The position numbers were made by a program, and so were the translations under genes. The notes beneath the pieces were generated by a model. The model ran no database searches. It worked only from the letters and a program-made list of their open reading frames with translations, and was not told the origin of the DNA. From assembly GCA_040757085.1 (NCBI GenBank), contig JBFLXJ010000005.1:1-59819 (forward strand): DNA of 59,819 nucleotides. The letters are read 5' to 3'. Below are positions 33,670 through 45,388 of this stretch, piece by piece. Every line of letters begins with the position of its first letter. The first letter of the stretch is position 1. This DNA comes from Bacillota bacterium (GTDB lineage Bacteria > Bacillota > Sulfobacillia > JACIYH01).

Positions 33670-35025
33670 GTGGAGAAACGCAGGCCCTTAACCTTTTTCC
33701 CATCCAGGCCGGGAAGGCTCTGGGTGGCCCAGAGAACGCTCGTCTTTCTTGCCCTAATCCTGTCCACCCTGGCCAGCTTCGCCGTGCGCCCCCTGGCCGA
33801 ACTGCCGGAAGAACTGGCGCTGGTAGCTGGCCAACCCCACGACCTGCGCCTGCCCGCCGGTATTCGGGGGTATCTTGACCCCGCTGGTCAGGTGCAGGTG
33901 ACTGCCGGGTATCCCGACAGCCTGGCCGGCTGGCTCACGGGTGGAACCCGCTTCACCCTGAGTCCTCGGGCCCAGGGAAAGGCCCGCCTGGAATTCCGCC
34001 TTTTGGGTGTATTACCCGTGCGTTCCGTCCTGGTGAGCGTGATCCCCGACACCAGGGTCATGGTGGGAGGGCACTCCATCGGAGTGGTGGTCTCCAGCCG
34101 GGGGGTGGTGGTCACCGGGATCAGGCCAGTGCGGACGACGGCAGGGGTACGCTCTCCCGCCCAGGATGCCGGCATCCTGCCCGGCGACATTATCCTCAGC
34201 GCGGGCGGAGCACCCGTGCGTGACGAAGAAGACCTGGCCCGCCGCGTTGGGCAGGCGGGCAGGAGCGGACAGGCCCTGGTTTTGGAAGTAGAAAGAGATG
34301 ACCGCCGATTCACGGTGACGGTTACCCCCGTGGCCCTGCCCGATGGCACTTTCCGCATTGGGCTGGCCGTGCGAGACGGCACCGCCGGCGTGGGCACCCT
34401 CACCATGTGGGACCCCGCCACCATGCGGTTCGCCGCTCTGGGGCATATGGTCACGGATGCGGAGACGGGGCGGCCCGTGCGCCTGGACGAGGGCCACATC
34501 GTCCTGGCGGGGATTCTGGCCGTCCACCAGGGCAGACGGGGTCACCCCGGGGAGAAGGTGGGCGTGTTCCTCCCCGAGCAGGATGTCCTGGGCCGCATCG
34601 ATCGTAACACCCCTTGCGGCATCATGGGGGAACTGCAACGCCCCCTTTCCAACCTCCTCTATGCCGCTCCGGTGCCCCTGGCGGCCGCTGCCACGGTACG
34701 GGAGGGAGCGGCGGAGGTACTCACCGTGGTCGATGGCCAGACTATTGAGTCGTTCAGTGCCCAGATCCAGAAGGTGTGGGCGGATCGGCGTTATGAGGGA
34801 AAGGGCATGGTGGTCAAGATCACCGACACCCGGCTCCGGCAGCAGGCAGGGGGTATCGTGCAGGGCATGAGCGGGAGTCCGGTGATCCAGGACGGCCGGC
34901 TGGTAGGGGCGGTGACCCACGTCTTCGTCAATGACCCCACCCGCGGGTACGGCGTGCTGGCCCAGTGGATGTGGGAAGAGATGGTGCAGGCGGCCACCGT
35001 GCGTGCTGACGGGCAGGCTCGGTGA
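33670..35025 (+). CDS. spoIVB: SpoIVB serine peptidase
   Basis: 451 aa. Forespore-secreted protease that triggers processing of pro-sigma-K in known systems. N-terminal membrane helix (about 20-40), a PDZ domain (SPAQDAGILPGDIILSAGG), and the SpoIVB catalytic domain with His259 in ALGHMVTDAETG and Ser403 in GMSGSPVIQDGRLVGAVTHV. GTG at 33670 with GGAGGT 7 nt upstream. Sits between recN and spo0A as in B. subtilis. Confidence 0.95.
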   Translation: MEKRRPLTFFPSRPGRLWVAQRTLVFLALILSTLASFAVRPLAELPEELALVAGQPHDLRLPAGIRGYLDPAGQVQVTAGYPDSLAGWLTGGTRFTLSPRAQGKARLEFRLLGVLPVRSVLVSVIPDTRVMVGGHSIGVVVSSRGVVVTGIRPVRTTAGVRSPAQDAGILPGDIILSAGGAPVRDEEDLARRVGQAGRSGQALVLEVERDDRRFTVTVTPVALPDGTFRIGLAVRDGTAGVGTLTMWDPATMRFAALGHMVTDAETGRPVRLDEGHIVLAGILAVHQGRRGHPGEKVGVFLPEQDVLGRIDRNTPCGIMGELQRPLSNLLYAAPVPLAAAATVREGAAEVLTVVDGQTIESFSAQIQKVWADRRYEGKGMVVKITDTRLRQQAGGIVQGMSGSPVIQDGRLVGAVTHVFVNDPTRGYGVLAQWMWEEMVQAATVRADGQAR

Positions 35026-35099
35026 GACCGGCGTGCCCGCGGACGGGCATGCCCCGCATAGACCCTCTGTGAGCGCCGGGCGCGTACGTCCCGCTGGAC

Positions 35100-35130
35100 C
35101 CTTTTGTCGGTTGGTGACGAAAGGTTTTTT
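35100..35130 (+). terminator. Intrinsic terminator after spoIVB
   Basis: CCTTT(TGT)CG (35100-35109) pairs with CGAAAGG (35118-35124) with a small bulge, followed by TTTTTT (35125-35130). It separates spoIVB from the spo0A promoter region. Confidence 0.65.
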
Positions 35131-35139
35131 CTGGAATAA

Positions 35140-35168
35140 GTAGGAATCGACCCCGCTGGCGGCGAAAT
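35140..35168 (+). promoter_or_regulatory. Possible sigma-H promoter of spo0A
   Basis: GTAGGAATC (35140-35148) and GGCGAAAT (35161-35168) approximate the sigma-H pattern RnAGGAwWW-N11/12-RnnGAAT with one mismatch. spo0A has a sigma-H promoter in B. subtilis. The start codon at 35217 is about 45 nt downstream. Confidence 0.4.
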
Positions 35169-35216
35169 GATGAGGGCGCGGTCACGAGGGTGAGTTTGGG
35201 GAAGGGGGTCACGTTT

Positions 35217-35972
35217 ATGGAGAAGATCAGGGTTCTCATCGCCGACGACAACCGGGAATTCTGCGAACTGCTGCGCGAGTACATAGACCAGCAGCCTGAC
35301 CTCCAGGTCGTGCAGATGGTGCACAACGGCTCTCAGGTGCTTGTCTCCCTCCAGGACACCAGGCCGGACGTGCTCCTCCTGGATATCATCATGCCTCACC
35401 TGGACGGCATCGGCGTGCTGGAGAAACTGGTCGATCTGCCCCGGAAGCCGCGGGTGGTGGTGCTTACCGCCTTCGGGCACGAACACGTGACCGGGCGCGC
35501 CGCGGAACTGGGGGCCGATTACTGCGTACTGAAACCCTTCGACCTGGACGTGCTGGCAGCGCGCATCCGGGAAGTAGCCAGAGGTGCCCCGGCGCGGCCG
35601 GCGCCCCAAGCGCGGGCGCGGAACCTGGATGCCGAGGTTACCTCGGTGATCCGCGAGGTGGGCATTCCCGCCCACATCCGGGGCTACAGTTACCTGCGGG
35701 ATGCGATCCTCATGGTGATCGAAGACATGGAACTCATCAACGCGGTGACCAAGAGCCTGTACCCGGCGATCGCCCAAAAGTACCGCACCACGCCTTCCCG
35801 GGTGGAGAGGGCGATCCGGCATGCCATCGAGGTGGCGTGGAACCGGGGGAACTTGGAGGCCATCGAGGAGATGTTCGGTTACACCGTGAGCCGCGACAAG
35901 GGCAAGCCCACCAATGCCCAGTTCATCGCCATGGTGGCCGACCGCATGCGCGTCGCCCTGCGCGCCAGCTAA
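35217..35972 (+). CDS. spo0A: Sporulation master regulator Spo0A
   Basis: 251 aa response regulator. Receiver domain with Asp10/Asp11 and phospho-acceptor Asp56 ([10 protein letters not shown]), Thr and Lys in VLTAFGHE and LKPFD, then a Pro/Ala-rich linker (about 122-135) and the C-terminal DNA-binding domain ([39 protein letters not shown]). ATG 35217 has GAAGGGGG 8 nt upstream; a GTG at 35190 would add nine residues. Confidence 0.97.
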
Positions 35973-36191
35973 GGTGGCATGCGCAGGAGTACGGCATGCA
36001 CGCCGCCACCGGTGTGAAAAGGGCAAAAGGGGGTGTGAGGGCGAAGCCCGGCGACCCCGGGTGAGAAGGGAAACGACCGCGGAGTGGAGAATAGGTAACT
36101 GGTCAGACGGCGCGAAGAGGAGCTGATGCAGTTTGCTCCCTGTGCTGTTGCCCCTGGTGGCGATGCGCACCCGGGGTCAGTGTATATCCTG

Positions 36192-36225
36192 AGAGCCGTT
36201 CCCGAGAGGAGCGGCTCTAATTTTT
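36192..36225 (+). terminator. Leader terminator ahead of the leucine dehydrogenase operon
   Basis: An 11-bp stem (AGAGCCGTTCC, 36192-36202, with GGAGCGGCTCT, 36208-36218; one T-G pair) has a 5-nt loop and is followed by AATTTTT. It ends only 17 nt before the ATG at 36242. Either it ends spo0A transcription with the next promoter inside the hairpin region, or it attenuates the dehydrogenase operon. The preceding 36000-36190 is G-rich and can form several hairpins, but no known riboswitch or T-box motif was recognised. Confidence 0.8.
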
Positions 36226-36241
36226 GGGCGGAGGTGGTGGC

Positions 36242-37324
36242 ATGGGTATCTTCGAAGCCATGGCCCGGGCAGGCCACGAGCAACTTTCCTTTTGCCGGGA
36301 GCCCGTTTCCGGGCTGCGGGCCGTCATCGCGATCCACAACAGTACCATCGGGCCTGCCCTGGGGGGCTGTCGCATGTGGAAGTACGAGACGGAGGAGGAT
36401 GTGGTGCGCGACGTCCTGCGGCTGTCGCAGGGGATGACGGAAAAGAATACGGCGGCGGGCCTCAATTACGGGGGAGGAAAGTGCGTAATCTGGGGTGACC
36501 CGGCCCGGGACAAGAGCGAGGCCCTCTTCCGGGCCCTGGGGCGCTTCGTGGAAGGGTTCGGAGGCCGGTTCATCACGGGCACCGACGTGGGCACGGTCCC
36601 TGCGGACTTCGTGTGGGCGGCTGCGGAAACCCGATATGTGGTCGCTCTTCCGGAGGAGTACGGCGGGAGCGGGGATACCTCGATCATCACCGCCTTTGCT
36701 GTTTGGAAGGGCATGAAGGCATGCGCCCGGGTGGTCTTCGGGTCCGATTCCCTGCGGGGGCTGAAAGTGGCCCTGCAGGGAGTGGGCAAGGTGGGGGGGC
36801 ACCTGGCCCGTCAACTGCACGAAGAAGGGGCACTCCTGCTGGCATGTGACGCCAACCCGGCCCGGCTGGACGAGGTGGCGTCCCGGATCCCGCTGGAAAA
36901 GATCAGCCAGGAGGAGATATACGACGTAGAATGCGATATCTTCTCTCCCAATGCCCTGGGCGGGATCCTCAACGACCACACCATCCCCCGGCTGCGGTGC
37001 CGGGTGGTGGCGGGGGCGGCCAACAACCAGCTCCAGGAGCTGCGGCACGCAGACATGCTCAAGGAGCGGGGCATCCTCTATGCGCCCGACTTCATCATCA
37101 ACGCCGGCGGCGCGATCCAGGCCGCCGACGAACTGGGGGGTTACAACCGCGATCGCGCCCTGCGCAAGGCGGCGGGTATCTACGACCACTTGCTGGAGGT
37201 ATTTCGGATCGCTCGCGAGCAGGACATCTCCCCTGCCCGGGCGGCGTACGTGTACATCGAACGCAGGCTAGAGATGCTCGGGGCCCTGGGCCGCATCCTG
37301 GTGCCCCGGGCCGCATCAAGGTGA
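36242..37324 (+). CDS. Leucine dehydrogenase family protein, copy 1
   Basis: 360 aa Glu/Leu/Phe/Val dehydrogenase. Substrate and catalytic lysines fall at positions 68 (MTEKN) and 80 (GGGK), the numbering of characterised leucine dehydrogenases. The catalytic aspartate is in TGTDVGT, and the Rossmann motif is VALQGVGKVGGHLA. Deviations from typical LeuDH (MTYKNA) include Tyr to Glu before Lys68 and a Trp in VIWGDP. Expected reaction: reversible NAD-dependent deamination of branched-chain amino acids. It is followed 12 nt later by a paralogue. Confidence 0.85.
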   Translation: MGIFEAMARAGHEQLSFCREPVSGLRAVIAIHNSTIGPALGGCRMWKYETEEDVVRDVLRLSQGMTEKNTAAGLNYGGGKCVIWGDPARDKSEALFRALGRFVEGFGGRFITGTDVGTVPADFVWAAAETRYVVALPEEYGGSGDTSIITAFAVWKGMKACARVVFGSDSLRGLKVALQGVGKVGGHLARQLHEEGALLLACDANPARLDEVASRIPLEKISQEEIYDVECDIFSPNALGGILNDHTIPRLRCRVVAGAANNQLQELRHADMLKERGILYAPDFIINAGGAIQAADELGGYNRDRALRKAAGIYDHLLEVFRIAREQDISPARAAYVYIERRLEMLGALGRILVPRAASR

Positions 37325-37336
37325 GGAGGTGGCGCC

Positions 37337-38407
37337 ATGGAAGTTTTCACCTCCATGGACGAGTACGGGCATGAGCAGGTCGTGTTCTGTTACGACGAAG
37401 GGTCGGGGCTGAGGAGCATCATCGCCATCCACGACACTTCCCTGGGGCCGGCCCTGGGGGGCTGTCGCATGTGGCCGTACCGCAGTGAGGAGGAAGCCCT
37501 CTGGGATGTATTGCGGCTGTCCCGGGGGATGACCTACAAGAACGCGGCCATGGGTCTCAACCTGGGCGGGGGTAAGGCGGTCATCATAGGCGACCCCCGC
37601 CGGGATAAGACCGAAGCGCTGCTGCGGGCTTTCGGGCGCTTCGTCCACACCCTGGGGGGAAGGTATGTCACCGCCGAGGATGTGGGCACCACGGTTTGGG
37701 ATATGGCCGTGGTGCGGTACGAGACGCCTTACGTGGCCGGCCTGAGCGAGAAGTCGGGCGACCCTTCTCCCGCCACCGCCTTTGGGGTGTGGAGGGGGAT
37801 GAAGGCCTGCGCCCGCTGGCTGTGGGGGTCGGAATCCCTGCGGGGTAAGACCGTGGCCTTGCAGGGAGTGGGGAAGGTGGGTGCGGTGCTGGCCCGTCAC
37901 CTGCGGGACGAGGGGGCCCACCTGGTGATCACCGACATGGACTCCGAGCGGGTCCGCGCCGTCGGCCAAGAACTGGGAGCGGAAGTGGTGGAGCCCGACG
38001 CCATCTACGACGTACCGTGTGACATCTTCTCCCCCTGCGCCCTGGGAGCAGTGGTGAATGACGACACCCTGAGGAGGTTCCGGTGTTCCGTAATCGCGGG
38101 CGCCGCGAACAACCAGCTTGCCGAACCGCGCCACGGCTACGCCCTCGAGGAGCGGGGCATCCTGTATGCGCCCGACTTCGTTATCAACGGCGGAGGCGTA
38201 ATTAACGTGAGCGACGAGTTCGAAGAAGGGGGTTACAACCGGGACCGGGCATTTGCTAAGATAGCAACAATTTATGACAAGCTGTGGCGGATCTTCACCG
38301 TTGCCCGCGAGGAGAAGATCCCCACTTTCCTGGCCGCGGACCGGGTGGCCGAGGAGCGCATCGCAGCCATCCGTCGCCTGCACCGGATATACGTGCCGGG
38401 GCGATGA
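37337..38407 (+). CDS. Leucine dehydrogenase family protein, copy 2
   Basis: 356 aa. Lys68 in MTYKNAAMGL and Lys80 in LGGGKAVIIGDP match canonical LeuDH more closely than copy 1; catalytic Asp in TAEDVGT; Rossmann VALQGVGKVGAVLA. Collinear with copy 1 over the whole length, so the two arose by tandem duplication followed by clear divergence. Its product, a branched-chain 2-oxoacid, is the substrate of the VorABC complex encoded just downstream. Confidence 0.88.
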   Translation: MEVFTSMDEYGHEQVVFCYDEGSGLRSIIAIHDTSLGPALGGCRMWPYRSEEEALWDVLRLSRGMTYKNAAMGLNLGGGKAVIIGDPRRDKTEALLRAFGRFVHTLGGRYVTAEDVGTTVWDMAVVRYETPYVAGLSEKSGDPSPATAFGVWRGMKACARWLWGSESLRGKTVALQGVGKVGAVLARHLRDEGAHLVITDMDSERVRAVGQELGAEVVEPDAIYDVPCDIFSPCALGAVVNDDTLRRFRCSVIAGAANNQLAEPRHGYALEERGILYAPDFVINGGGVINVSDEFEEGGYNRDRAFAKIATIYDKLWRIFTVAREEKIPTFLAADRVAEERIAAIRRLHRIYVPGR

Positions 38408-38410
38408 GGG

Positions 38411-39073
38411 ATGGCGCAGGACCAGGTGACCGTGTTCCTGGGCCCGTACGGCAGCGGCAAAACGGAGATCGCCCTCAATTATGCGGTTTGGCTGGCCCGT
38501 CAGGTGCCGGCGGTGTGGCTGGCGGACCTGGACCTGGTGACCCCGTACTTCCGGGCCCGCGACGCCCGAGATAGCCTGGAGCGGGAAGGAGTGCATGTGG
38601 TGGCCGCCGACCCTGCCTGGGGCGACGGGGACCTCCCCATTCTGCCCCCCGGCCTGAGCGGGCTCTTGCGGAAGGGGGGCCCCGGGGTGGTGGACGTGGG
38701 GGGAGGCGACGCGGGGGCGCGGGTGCTGGGATCCGTGCGCCCGCTCGTCGAGAGTCACCAGCGCGTCTTGATGGTGTTCAACCCCTACCGGCCCGGATGC
38801 GATTCTCCTTCCCGGCTGGCCGCCTTGGCCCGCGAGGTGGCCGAAAGCAGCCGTCTTAACCCCATCGGGGTGGTGTCCAATCCTCACCTGGGATCCCATA
38901 CCACGGTGGAGACCGTGGGTCGGGGACACCTGGTTGTGGAACAGGCGGCCCACCTGCTGGGCCTGCCCGTGGTCATGCTCGCTGCGTTACAGGACATTGC
39001 GCCTGCCGTGGAGAAGATGCTGGGCCGGGAAGTATTCCCCCTGCGGCGGTACCTTGTTCTGCCGTGGGAGTAA
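38411..39073 (+). CDS. P-loop ATPase of unknown role, vor-linked
   Basis: 220 aa. MinD/ParA-like nucleotide-binding protein with Walker A GPYGSGKT at residues 11-18, ADLDLVTPYFRARD (switch-like) and VDVGGGDAGARVLG. No DNA-binding or membrane domain is seen. It lies 3 nt after the second LeuDH gene and 13 nt before the ferredoxin gene, so it is cotranscribed with the 2-oxoacid oxidoreductase. It could be a maturation or assembly factor for the iron-sulfur/ThDP complex; that is inference from location only. Confidence 0.7.
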   Translation: MAQDQVTVFLGPYGSGKTEIALNYAVWLARQVPAVWLADLDLVTPYFRARDARDSLEREGVHVVAADPAWGDGDLPILPPGLSGLLRKGGPGVVDVGGGDAGARVLGSVRPLVESHQRVLMVFNPYRPGCDSPSRLAALAREVAESSRLNPIGVVSNPHLGSHTTVETVGRGHLVVEQAAHLLGLPVVMLAALQDIAPAVEKMLGREVFPLRRYLVLPWE

Positions 39074-39311: not shown

Positions 39312-40385
39312 ATGGTGGCGGAACTGGTTCTCATGAAGGGAAACGAGGCCATTGCCGAAGCGGCCATCCGGGCCGGGTGCCGGTTTTACGCCGGCTACCC
39401 CATAACCCCCCAGAATGAGCTGTGCGAATATATGGCCAGGCGTATGCCCGAGGTGGGGGGTACTTTCATCCAGTCGGAGTCGGAAATCGCGGCGATCAAC
39501 ATGGTGTACGGGGCTGGCTCGGCGGGGGCCCGAGCCATGACCTCCTCTTCTTCGCCGGGGATAAGCCTCAAGCAGGAGGGAATTTCCTACCTGGCCGGGG
39601 CGGAGGTGCCCGGGGTAATCGTAAACATGGTCCGGGGGGGACCTGGGCTGGGGAGCATCCAGCCCGCCCAGTCCGATTACTTTCAGGCCACCCGGGGGGG
39701 AGGCCACGGTGACTACCGTACGGTGGTACTGGGCCCGGGTAGCATCCAGGAGGCAGTGGAACTGACCATGCTGGCCTTCGACATCGCCGACCGCTATCGC
39801 AACCCGGTGGTGGTGCTGGGCGACGGGATGCTGGGGCAGATGATGGAACCCGTGCGGTTCCCCGATACTCCACCGCCTTCTCCCCAACCTAAACCCTGGG
39901 CCACCACCGGCACCAGGGGACGGGGGCACCCCAATATCATCAACTCCCTGTATATCGAAGCAGAAGCCTGTGAGCGCCACAACCAGCGCCTGCAGGAGAA
40001 GTACCGGCGAATAGAGCGGGAAGAGGTCCGATACGAGCTTGTGGATCCCGAAGCGGAATACTTCCTGGTGGCGTACGGGACCGGTTCCCGCATTTGCCGG
40101 GCGGTGATCGCGCGGGCGCAGGCAGAAGGGCTGCGCGTGGGTATGGTGCGTCCCATCACCCTGTGGCCTTTTCCCCAGGTGGCCATCGAGCAGGTGGTGG
40201 AGCGGGCACGGGCGTTCCTGGCCGTGGAAATGTCGGCGGGGCAAATGGTCGAGGACGTCAGGCTGGCTGTGGCGGGGCGGTGCCCGGTGTATTTCTTCGG
40301 ACGCACCGGGGGGGCCGTGCCCACTCCCCAGGAAGTGATGTCCCGCCTGAAGATGATCGTGGAAGGCCGGGGAGGTGAGCTCTGA
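39312..40385 (+). CDS. vorB: 2-oxoacid (3-methyl-2-oxobutanoate) oxidoreductase VorB, alpha subunit
   Basis: 357 aa. [29 protein letters not shown] is broken here as two blocks: [17 protein letters not shown] and [12 protein letters not shown], both diagnostic of Vor[14 protein letters not shown] and [14 protein letters not shown] follow. Oxidatively decarboxylates branched-chain 2-oxoacids to acyl-CoA with reduction of ferredoxin. The stop overlaps vorA by one base. Upstream LeuDH genes supply the oxoacids. Confidence 0.92.
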
Positions 40386-41134
40386 TGCAGCGCATATTCA
40401 CCCGTCCCCAGGCTCTGACCGATGTTCCCTTTCACTACTGTCCCGGGTGTCCCCACGGGATCGTGCACCGTCTGGTGGCCGAGTGCATCGACGAGCTGGG
40501 GGTCAGGGAGAGAACCGTGGGGATCGCCCCCGTGGGATGCGCCGTATTCGCATACAACTACTTCAACTGCGATATGATCCAGGCCGCTCACGGGCGCGCC
40601 CCGGCGGTGGCCACGGGGGTGAAGCGGGCCCAACCCGACGCGGTGGTATTCACCTACCAGGGAGATGGGGACCTGGCTGCCATCGGTACGGCGGAGATCA
40701 TCCACGCTGCCACCCGGGGTGAGCGCATCACGGTGGTATTCATCAACAACGCCATCTACGGCATGACAGGCGGTCAGATGGCCCCCACCACCCTGGTGGG
40801 GCAGGAGACCACCACGACCCCGCGGGGCCGGGATGCCTCTTACCACGGCCATCCCGTGCGGGTGTCGGAGATGCTGGCTCTCCTTGATGGAACCGCCTAC
40901 GTGGCCCGGGTCTCGGTGCACGGCCCCGGGCACGTGAACAGGGCCAAGCGGGCCCTGCGCAAGGCCTTCGAGGTGCAAATTCACAACCTGGGCTTTTCCC
41001 TGGTGGAGGTTGTTTCCGCCTGTCCCACCAACTGGGGGATGACACCGGTGGAAGCCCTCCGCTGGGTCGAGCAAAACATGCTCCCCTACTACCGCCTGGG
41101 GGAGTTCAAGACGCCCGGGCAGGGGGAGGCATGA
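40385..41134 (+). CDS. vorA: 2-oxoacid oxidoreductase VorA, ThDP-binding beta subunit
   Basis: 249 aa. Thiamine diphosphate motif GDGDLAAIG...[16 protein letters not shown] is present (residues about 96-140); CPGCPHG near the N-terminus. Catalytic partner of VorB. ATG overlaps the vorB stop (TGATG). Confidence 0.92.
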
Positions 41135-41138
41135 TCTC

Positions 41139-41681
41139 ATGGTGCACGAGGTGCTCATGGCCGGGTTTGGAGGCCAGGGAGTGATGGCCATGGGTTCGCT
41201 GCTCGCGTACGCGGGCATGCTGGACGGCAAGCAGGTATCCTGGCTGCCCTCCTACGGGCCCGAGATGCGGGGAGGCACCGCCAATTGTCATGTGGTGATT
41301 TCCGACGAACCGGTGGCCTGCCCCCTGGTGACGGAACCCACGGCTGCCATCGTCCTCAATCGCCCTTCCCTGGACCGCTTCGAGAAGGCGGTGCGGCCCG
41401 GCGGCATCCTGGTCTACAACTCCTCGCTGATCGATCGGCAGCCGGTGCGGACCGACGTCAGGGTGGTTGCCATTCCCGCCAATCAGATAGCGGAAGAACT
41501 GGGCTCAGGCCGGGTGGCCAACATGGTGTGCCTGGGTGCTTTTTTGGCCCTCACGGGGGCGGTGTCCGTGCAAGCGGTGTGCGAATCCCTGCGGAAGGTA
41601 CTTCCCGTTCACCGGCACGACCTCATCCCCGTCAACGAAGCCGCCCTGCGCCGCGGCAGAGAGCTGGCCCAGGGACACTAG
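41139..41681 (+). CDS. vorC: 2-oxoacid oxidoreductase VorC, gamma subunit
   Basis: 180 aa. GFGGQGVMAMG near the N-terminus and WLPSYGPEMRGGTANC are family signatures of the gamma domain. Four nt after vorA. Completes an alpha-beta-gamma-delta complex with the preceding three genes. Confidence 0.92.
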   Translation: MVHEVLMAGFGGQGVMAMGSLLAYAGMLDGKQVSWLPSYGPEMRGGTANCHVVISDEPVACPLVTEPTAAIVLNRPSLDRFEKAVRPGGILVYNSSLIDRQPVRTDVRVVAIPANQIAEELGSGRVANMVCLGAFLALTGAVSVQAVCESLRKVLPVHRHDLIPVNEAALRRGRELAQGH

Positions 41682-45248: not shown

Positions 45249-45388
45249 AATACATAACTATGAGTTGGGAACATTGCTATGAGGGGCGGGGACTGATGGC
45301 AAAGCAGAAAGGAATTCCCTTGCCTACGCCGAATACCCAGGAGGCGGCCCAGAGGAGCATAGGGCGCAGCACAAAGGGTGGTAAGGCG

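Follow-up and report, generated by a model that had tools for sequence, protein, structure and literature searches.

What is the stretch of 269 nt that separates spo0A from an amino acid dehydrogenase gene in this member of the Bacillota, and does the terminator-like hairpin at its end belong to the gene upstream or to the genes downstream? The window, a stretch of 59,819 nt, comes from a 2.67-Mb genome made up of 34 contigs, and the corresponding species (G000) was compared with its two congeners (G001 and G002). In the window, spo0A (35220..35972, plus strand; NCBIfam TIGR02875, 371.9 bits, cut-off 200) is the upstream neighbor. A terminator located 3' of spoIVB (35100-35124) and then a sigma-H-like AGGAATC...GAAA (around 35142-35166, noted by eye) precede spo0A, and the lineage encodes Spo0A, SpoIVB, and sigma-H.

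Downstream, on the same strand, lies a tandem pair of dehydrogenase genes, the first of which (36242..37324) is 86-87% identical to its counterparts in both congeners. This gene had been labeled leucine dehydrogenase in a first-pass annotation made from the sequence. It encodes an amino acid dehydrogenase for which leucine is a candidate substrate; the best NCBIfam model, that of the tryptophan dehydrogenase ScyB (NF035922), scored below its cut-off (346 bits against 600). The second gene of the pair (37337..38407, plus strand) reached 407.7 bits with NF035922, also below cut-off. The vor genes at 39312..41681 (plus strand) encode the VorB, beta, and gamma subunits of a 2-oxoacid:ferredoxin oxidoreductase, of which VorB scored over its cut-off and the beta and gamma subunits below theirs. 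The dehydrogenase/Vor cluster is probably dedicated to the breakdown of branched-chain amino acids. Between the dehydrogenases and the vor genes there is an open reading frame of 220 amino acids (38411-39073) with no NCBIfam match at an E value of 0.001, in which the motif GPYGSGKTE suggests a nucleotide-binding P-loop.

The hairpin itself is well defined. An 11-bp stem followed by a T run shortly before the start codon had been proposed, and hairpin scan, folding, and alignment of the three species all identify an intrinsic-terminator-like hairpin of 11 pairs with a 5-nt loop at 36192..36218 (plus strand), followed by TTTTT at 36221-36225, with 16 nt between this run and the start codon at 36242. 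Folded in its context (36186-36226), it has a free energy of -20.4 kcal/mol (z -5.5), a value reached by none of 200 shuffles. The stem is present in all three species (94.4% of cells paired, four one-sided changes), contains the invariant block GCCGTTCCC, and is maintained in the genus despite sequence change. Its AATTTTT tail (36219..36225, plus strand) starts with AATTTTTGGG, and the U-run is offset from the stem by AA. A terminator score amounts to -24 in the window (-32 if the stem is taken to be shorter), to between +10 and +21 in G001, and to +12.5 in G002; the stem is stable, and by this score the U-tract is poor in the window and acceptable in G001 and G002.

The position of the promoter bears directly on the role of this hairpin. 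The sigma-H two-box motif AGGAnnn-N11/12-nnnGAAT was matched, with AGGG replacing AGGA, by AGGGAAA-N12-GGAGAAT at 36067..36092 (plus strand; -35 box 36067-36073, -10 box 36086-36092). Both boxes are identical in the three species, and the site ends 147-150 nt before the start codon. Since this pattern was composed after some of the upstream regions had been read, an independent matrix was built from the C. difficile SigH promoters given in Table 3 of PMC7438776, with 2 of the 40 sites omitted for length. The best matrix site was again 36067-36092, and sites as good were obtained in 2 of 200 shuffles for the window and in 0 of 200 for each congener. In all, the matrix was run on 8 upstream regions, picked from the 17 dehydrogenase upstream regions with a pattern match described below; in these 8 its best site coincided with the pattern site, and 0 to 2 of 200 shuffles were as good. 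As a yardstick, the strict pattern recovers 16 of the 40 C. difficile promoters in that table (PMC7438776); the 60-kb window contains 7 matches to it, 6 on the plus and one on the minus strand. The gene sigH was found over cut-off in all three genomes of the genus, as was rpoN. We read 36067-36092 as a sigma-H promoter that is presumably in use; its position upstream of the hairpin implies that transcripts should begin near 36099, about 7 nt past the -10 box, and traverse the hairpin.

This start would make the leader considerably shorter than the 269 nt initially assigned to it: a leader of about 140 nt (36099..36241, plus strand; 85% mean column identity in the alignment of the three species) corresponds to roughly the second half of the interval 35973-36241. 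The initial 94 nt (35973-36066) precede the likely promoter, and the leader RNA probably does not include them. They are nearly absent in G002: there, the end of the spo0A match is 191 nt and the start of the promoter 176 nt away from the dehydrogenase, leaving 15 nt that include the stop codon. Promoter and leader together are 74-77% identical among the three species, compared with 49-53% at fourfold sites in the dehydrogenase gene. Conservation thus extends beyond the hairpin, and the leader as a whole exceeds the neutral level. At its 3' end, the conserved GGGCGGAGG (36226..36234, plus strand), which contains the ribosome binding site of the dehydrogenase, is invariant in the three species.

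Some 190 nt of foldable sequence had been reported ahead of the terminator. The interval as a whole does fold moderately better than expected (z -2.5, 2 of 200 shuffles as good), but this is mainly due to the terminator: 36099-36226 folds at z -3.4 with 0 of 200 shuffles as good, whereas without the terminator z is -1.4 for 36110-36192, -0.5 for 35973-36110, and -0.95 to -1.54 for the leaders of the three species. Two hairpins can be drawn in this part. P1, GGAGC...GCTCC (36119..36139, plus strand), has 7 of 9 pairs unvarying in the three species, including the blocks GGAGC and GCTCC, which neither supports nor refutes pairing; its 5' arm doubles as a Shine-Dalgarno-like stretch before an ATG at 36126. 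P2, CTGTTGCCCCTGG...CCGGGGTCAG (36141..36184, plus strand), has 96.3% of its cells paired in the alignment of the three species; among its 18 pairs, 2 are altered on both sides and 4 on a single side, and TGCTGTTGCCCCTGGT and CCGGGGTCAG form its invariant blocks. The covariation check suggested for aligned leaders had three sequences to draw on, and shuffled letters matched the observed covariation in 109 of 500 cases; with three sequences, covariation proves nothing either way.

The elements thus stand in the order promoter, leader, terminator, and ribosome binding site, which is that of a transcription attenuator, and in all three species the putative promoter precedes the terminator-like hairpin. 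What can be read directly from the sequence is the promoter motif, the fact that it precedes the hairpin, and the conservation of the whole leader; use of the promoter, termination, its regulation, and any signal are interpretations built on them. We give slightly better than an even chance to a genus-restricted transcription attenuator acting on a sigma-H-driven dehydrogenase/Vor operon. RNA polymerase with sigma-H would start at about 36099 and make a leader of about 140 nt able to fold into P1 and P2; the polymerase would then either halt at the hairpin (36192-36218) or continue into the dehydrogenase/Vor operon. Candidates for the deciding factor are a metabolite, a protein that binds the RNA, and the speed of the polymerase or of ribosomes, and the hairpin may additionally end read-through from spo0A. 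The genome contains 12 T-box matches, of which 2 are over cut-off, so attenuation is in use in this organism. The attenuation proposed earlier is partly supported: the promoter upstream of the hairpin and the conservation of the leader speak for it, and the poor U-tract of the window and an antiterminator that does not rise above chance, as detailed below, speak against it.

The hairpin might instead be a plain terminator of spo0A, leaky or constitutive and without regulation, which the operon promoter happens to precede or which a further promoter follows; we consider this doubtful, though with an appreciable chance of being correct. No other terminator-like hairpin was detected by scanning between spo0A and the dehydrogenase in any of the three species, and the hairpin may for this reason stop spo0A read-through. 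Of five other spo0A-adjacent loci scanned (a ninth such locus, L029, with a distant spo0A match, was left out), two, L027 and L030, show a terminator at most about 50 nt 3' of spo0A; in L019 a weak terminator overlaps the spo0A end, and L014 and L015 have none. In L030, however, the terminator precedes the sigma-H-type site, an order unlike that in this genus. A promoter downstream of the hairpin had been named as the observation that would reduce it to the end of spo0A transcription, and by eye a -10-like TCTAAT (36215-36220) that lacks a -35 box overlaps the end of the hairpin, but a scan found no sigma-70-like site in 34500-37500. Furthermore, the conserved block comprises the entire leader rather than the hairpin alone. 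Because a sigma-H-type promoter lies upstream of the hairpin, attenuation is favored over simple termination of spo0A transcription. The hairpin may nevertheless have both functions, a 3' terminator perhaps having been taken over as a 5' regulator. As proposed in the survey by Naville and Gautheret (2010; PMC2965389), the 3' terminators of insertion sequences or prophages can be exapted as 5' regulators; this idea fits the junction between spo0A and the operon, with the difference that mobile elements are concerned there.

It is unlikely that the leader acts instead on translation or mRNA stability, with its 5' end GTCCAGA pairing with TTTGGGC near the ribosome binding site and the hairpin protecting or exposing that site. 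This helix is present in the RNAalifold consensus, where it joins columns 6-13 to columns 132-139 (22 of 24 cells paired), with conserved blocks on both of its sides, but three sequences are too few to judge covariation, and the arrangement seen here, a stem and then a U-run directly ahead of the ribosome binding site, is that of a terminator.

A new sensor RNA, also raised in the first-pass annotation, is not supported by these comparisons: the element was found at one locus in one genus, three-sequence covariation is uninformative, and pairing of the terminator 5' arm compared with shuffles revealed no antiterminator above chance in the three species. In its specific form, that of a genus-restricted P1-P2-terminator RNA that responds to a branched-chain amino acid, to the corresponding oxoacid, or to a related cofactor and gates the sigma-H-driven catabolic operon, we regard it as quite unlikely. 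With the 3' arm absent, the upstream pairing probability of the 5' arm was 0.61-0.79 against shuffle means of 0.56-0.66, values reached by 71, 23, and 204 of 300 shuffles in the three species. An antiterminator in a shared register can be drawn between the 5' arms of P1 and of the terminator. It consists of a 7-pair helix (20 of 21 cells paired; 6 pairs unvarying and one lost in the window's species) and an accompanying 4-pair helix in which each pair has changed on one side and 12 of 12 cells are paired. Its covariation was equaled by shuffled letters in 104 of 500 cases, and in the window's species it is implausible, lying well away from the best fold (-24.8 against -43.7 kcal/mol for the truncated RNA); this structure, which is not above shuffles, was rejected.

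Attenuation by a ribosome translating a short reading frame from ATG 36126 is highly improbable, since, despite an SD-like AGGAGC and ATG that are invariant in the three species and a frame in which none of them has a stop before the end of the hairpin stem, 15 of 38 codons differ between G000 and G001 with 15 of 15 changes nonsynonymous (9, 8, and 3 bases changed at codon positions 1, 2, and 3), which disfavors a conserved peptide, the G002 frame diverges after MGFAPDAVAPGR, and neither a Leu-, Ile-, or Val-rich stretch nor a stop is common to the three species. The search thus gave no conserved peptide that has control codons and ends close to the hairpin.

The element appears to be confined to the genus. 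The exact P2 pattern was found in 3 of 154 genomes of the class, namely, the three congeners, once per genome, and a covariance model gave the same single match in each of them and convincing scores nowhere else among the 154 genomes. Covariance model and HMM together had matches at E values up to 1 in 26 of the 154 genomes; beyond the three congeners the best had E values of 0.002-0.005 per genome, which is about chance level for 154 genomes. Since stricter filters were applied in this search, weak relatives of the leader may be lost. In a search of 66 upstream regions with nhmmer, the best match outside the genus had an E value of 0.14. Two loci that stood out by gapped pairwise score (L081, z 5.3, and L013, z 4.2) were unsupported by nhmmer, and homology is therefore not claimed. 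A contig scan returned a single locus, in Bacillota bacterium isolate MAG-73 (JACIYH010000002.1), on a contig as long as that of G002.

The initial observation that the leader resembles no known riboswitch or T-box was confirmed: no Rfam 15 family was detected at the locus, either in the window at gathering threshold or, at permissive settings, in 35900-36300 and both congener leaders. Matches below gathering, all of them far below, were to suhB and CRISPR-DR20 (other strand), MIR7532, and BcKCsr2, and 19 related loci had no Rfam match at gathering. A search for ANTAR proteins returned none in the three genomes of the genus, and the same search also gave none in 14 controls. Among the titles listed by literature searches, no such leader was found, which does not prove its absence from print.

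Elsewhere in the window, a glycine riboswitch (RF00504; 1652-1768, 51.9 bits) overlaps an 18-pair terminator (1753-1792), and a sigma-H-type motif is located upstream of it (1511-1535); this is also a cis-regulatory leader but an unrelated one, and 35900-36300 has no match to its aptamer. A full-length OLE RNA (RF01071; 27956-28553, 481 bits) runs into the start of an open reading frame listed from 28531, which we read as DXS-like. A further sigma-H-type motif (45310-45334) lies inside the 5' part of an open reading frame listed from 45086, in our reading recombinase-like.

In T-box leaders (RF00230), a terminator precedes the ribosome binding site. The leader described here shares this feature but, unlike them, has no T-box match even at E values up to 10. 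Naville and Gautheret, in their survey of uncharacterized 5'-terminator attenuators, describe diverse, fast-evolving sensing structures (PMC2965389). As in those attenuators, a putative premature intrinsic terminator precedes the gene; the main text of that survey does not contain the words leucine and dehydrogenase, and the present element differs in being restricted to one locus in one genus. The Bacillus bkd operon, as presented in PMC4428206, is a branched-chain amino acid catabolic operon that includes a leucine dehydrogenase gene and is controlled by sigma-54 and BkdR. The operon studied here is similar in kind, with the reservation made above on its substrate, but differs from that account of bkd (PMC4428206) in that its promoter in this genus is of the sigma-H type and the sigma-54 pattern has no match there.

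This difference is reflected across the class. The 66 upstream regions of dehydrogenase family genes comprise 30 loci and 36 more picked from the listed matches, mostly skipping second copies directly behind a first; the set includes close relatives and some operon-internal copies. Within the last 350 nt, the sigma-H pattern was matched in 17 of the 66 regions (mean 0.66 and maximum 5 in 200 shuffle rounds) and the sigma-54 pattern in 13 (mean 0.2, maximum 2), with no match to either on the reverse strand and no region containing both. The upstream regions of this family in the class therefore appear to carry either sigma-H-type or sigma-54-type promoters, a conclusion that is firmer than the attenuator reading; one sigma factor seems to have been exchanged for the other among members of a single class. 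In 9 of the 66 regions, a terminator-like hairpin lies in the last 110 nt or so before the dehydrogenase start, compared with a mean of 1.9 (SD 1.25, maximum 4) in 40 shuffle rounds; farther upstream, at 310-412 nt, where much of the sequence is expected to be coding, none of 64 regions has one. Six of the 9 regions, which represent four lineages, have a sigma-H-type site ahead of the hairpin (L001-L003 of this genus, L012, L013, and L087). This excess is support rather than proof, since intergenic regions are expected to hold the terminators of upstream genes and three scored hairpins from other lineages have values below zero (-1.3, -9.8, and -6.8). A different leader hairpin, AAGCCCACTA...TGGGCTTTATCCG, was noted by eye at a similar place before the dehydrogenase in family f25 (L005, L007, and L011).

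The promoter comparison suggests that genes of the dehydrogenase family came under the control of sigma-54 in some members of the class and of sigma-H in others. The leader RNA is, as far as is known, one local example of a common kind of element. If the attenuator reading is correct, the breakdown of branched-chain amino acids in this lineage would pass through two gates, one set by the sigma factor of the transition phase and the other by a leader RNA.
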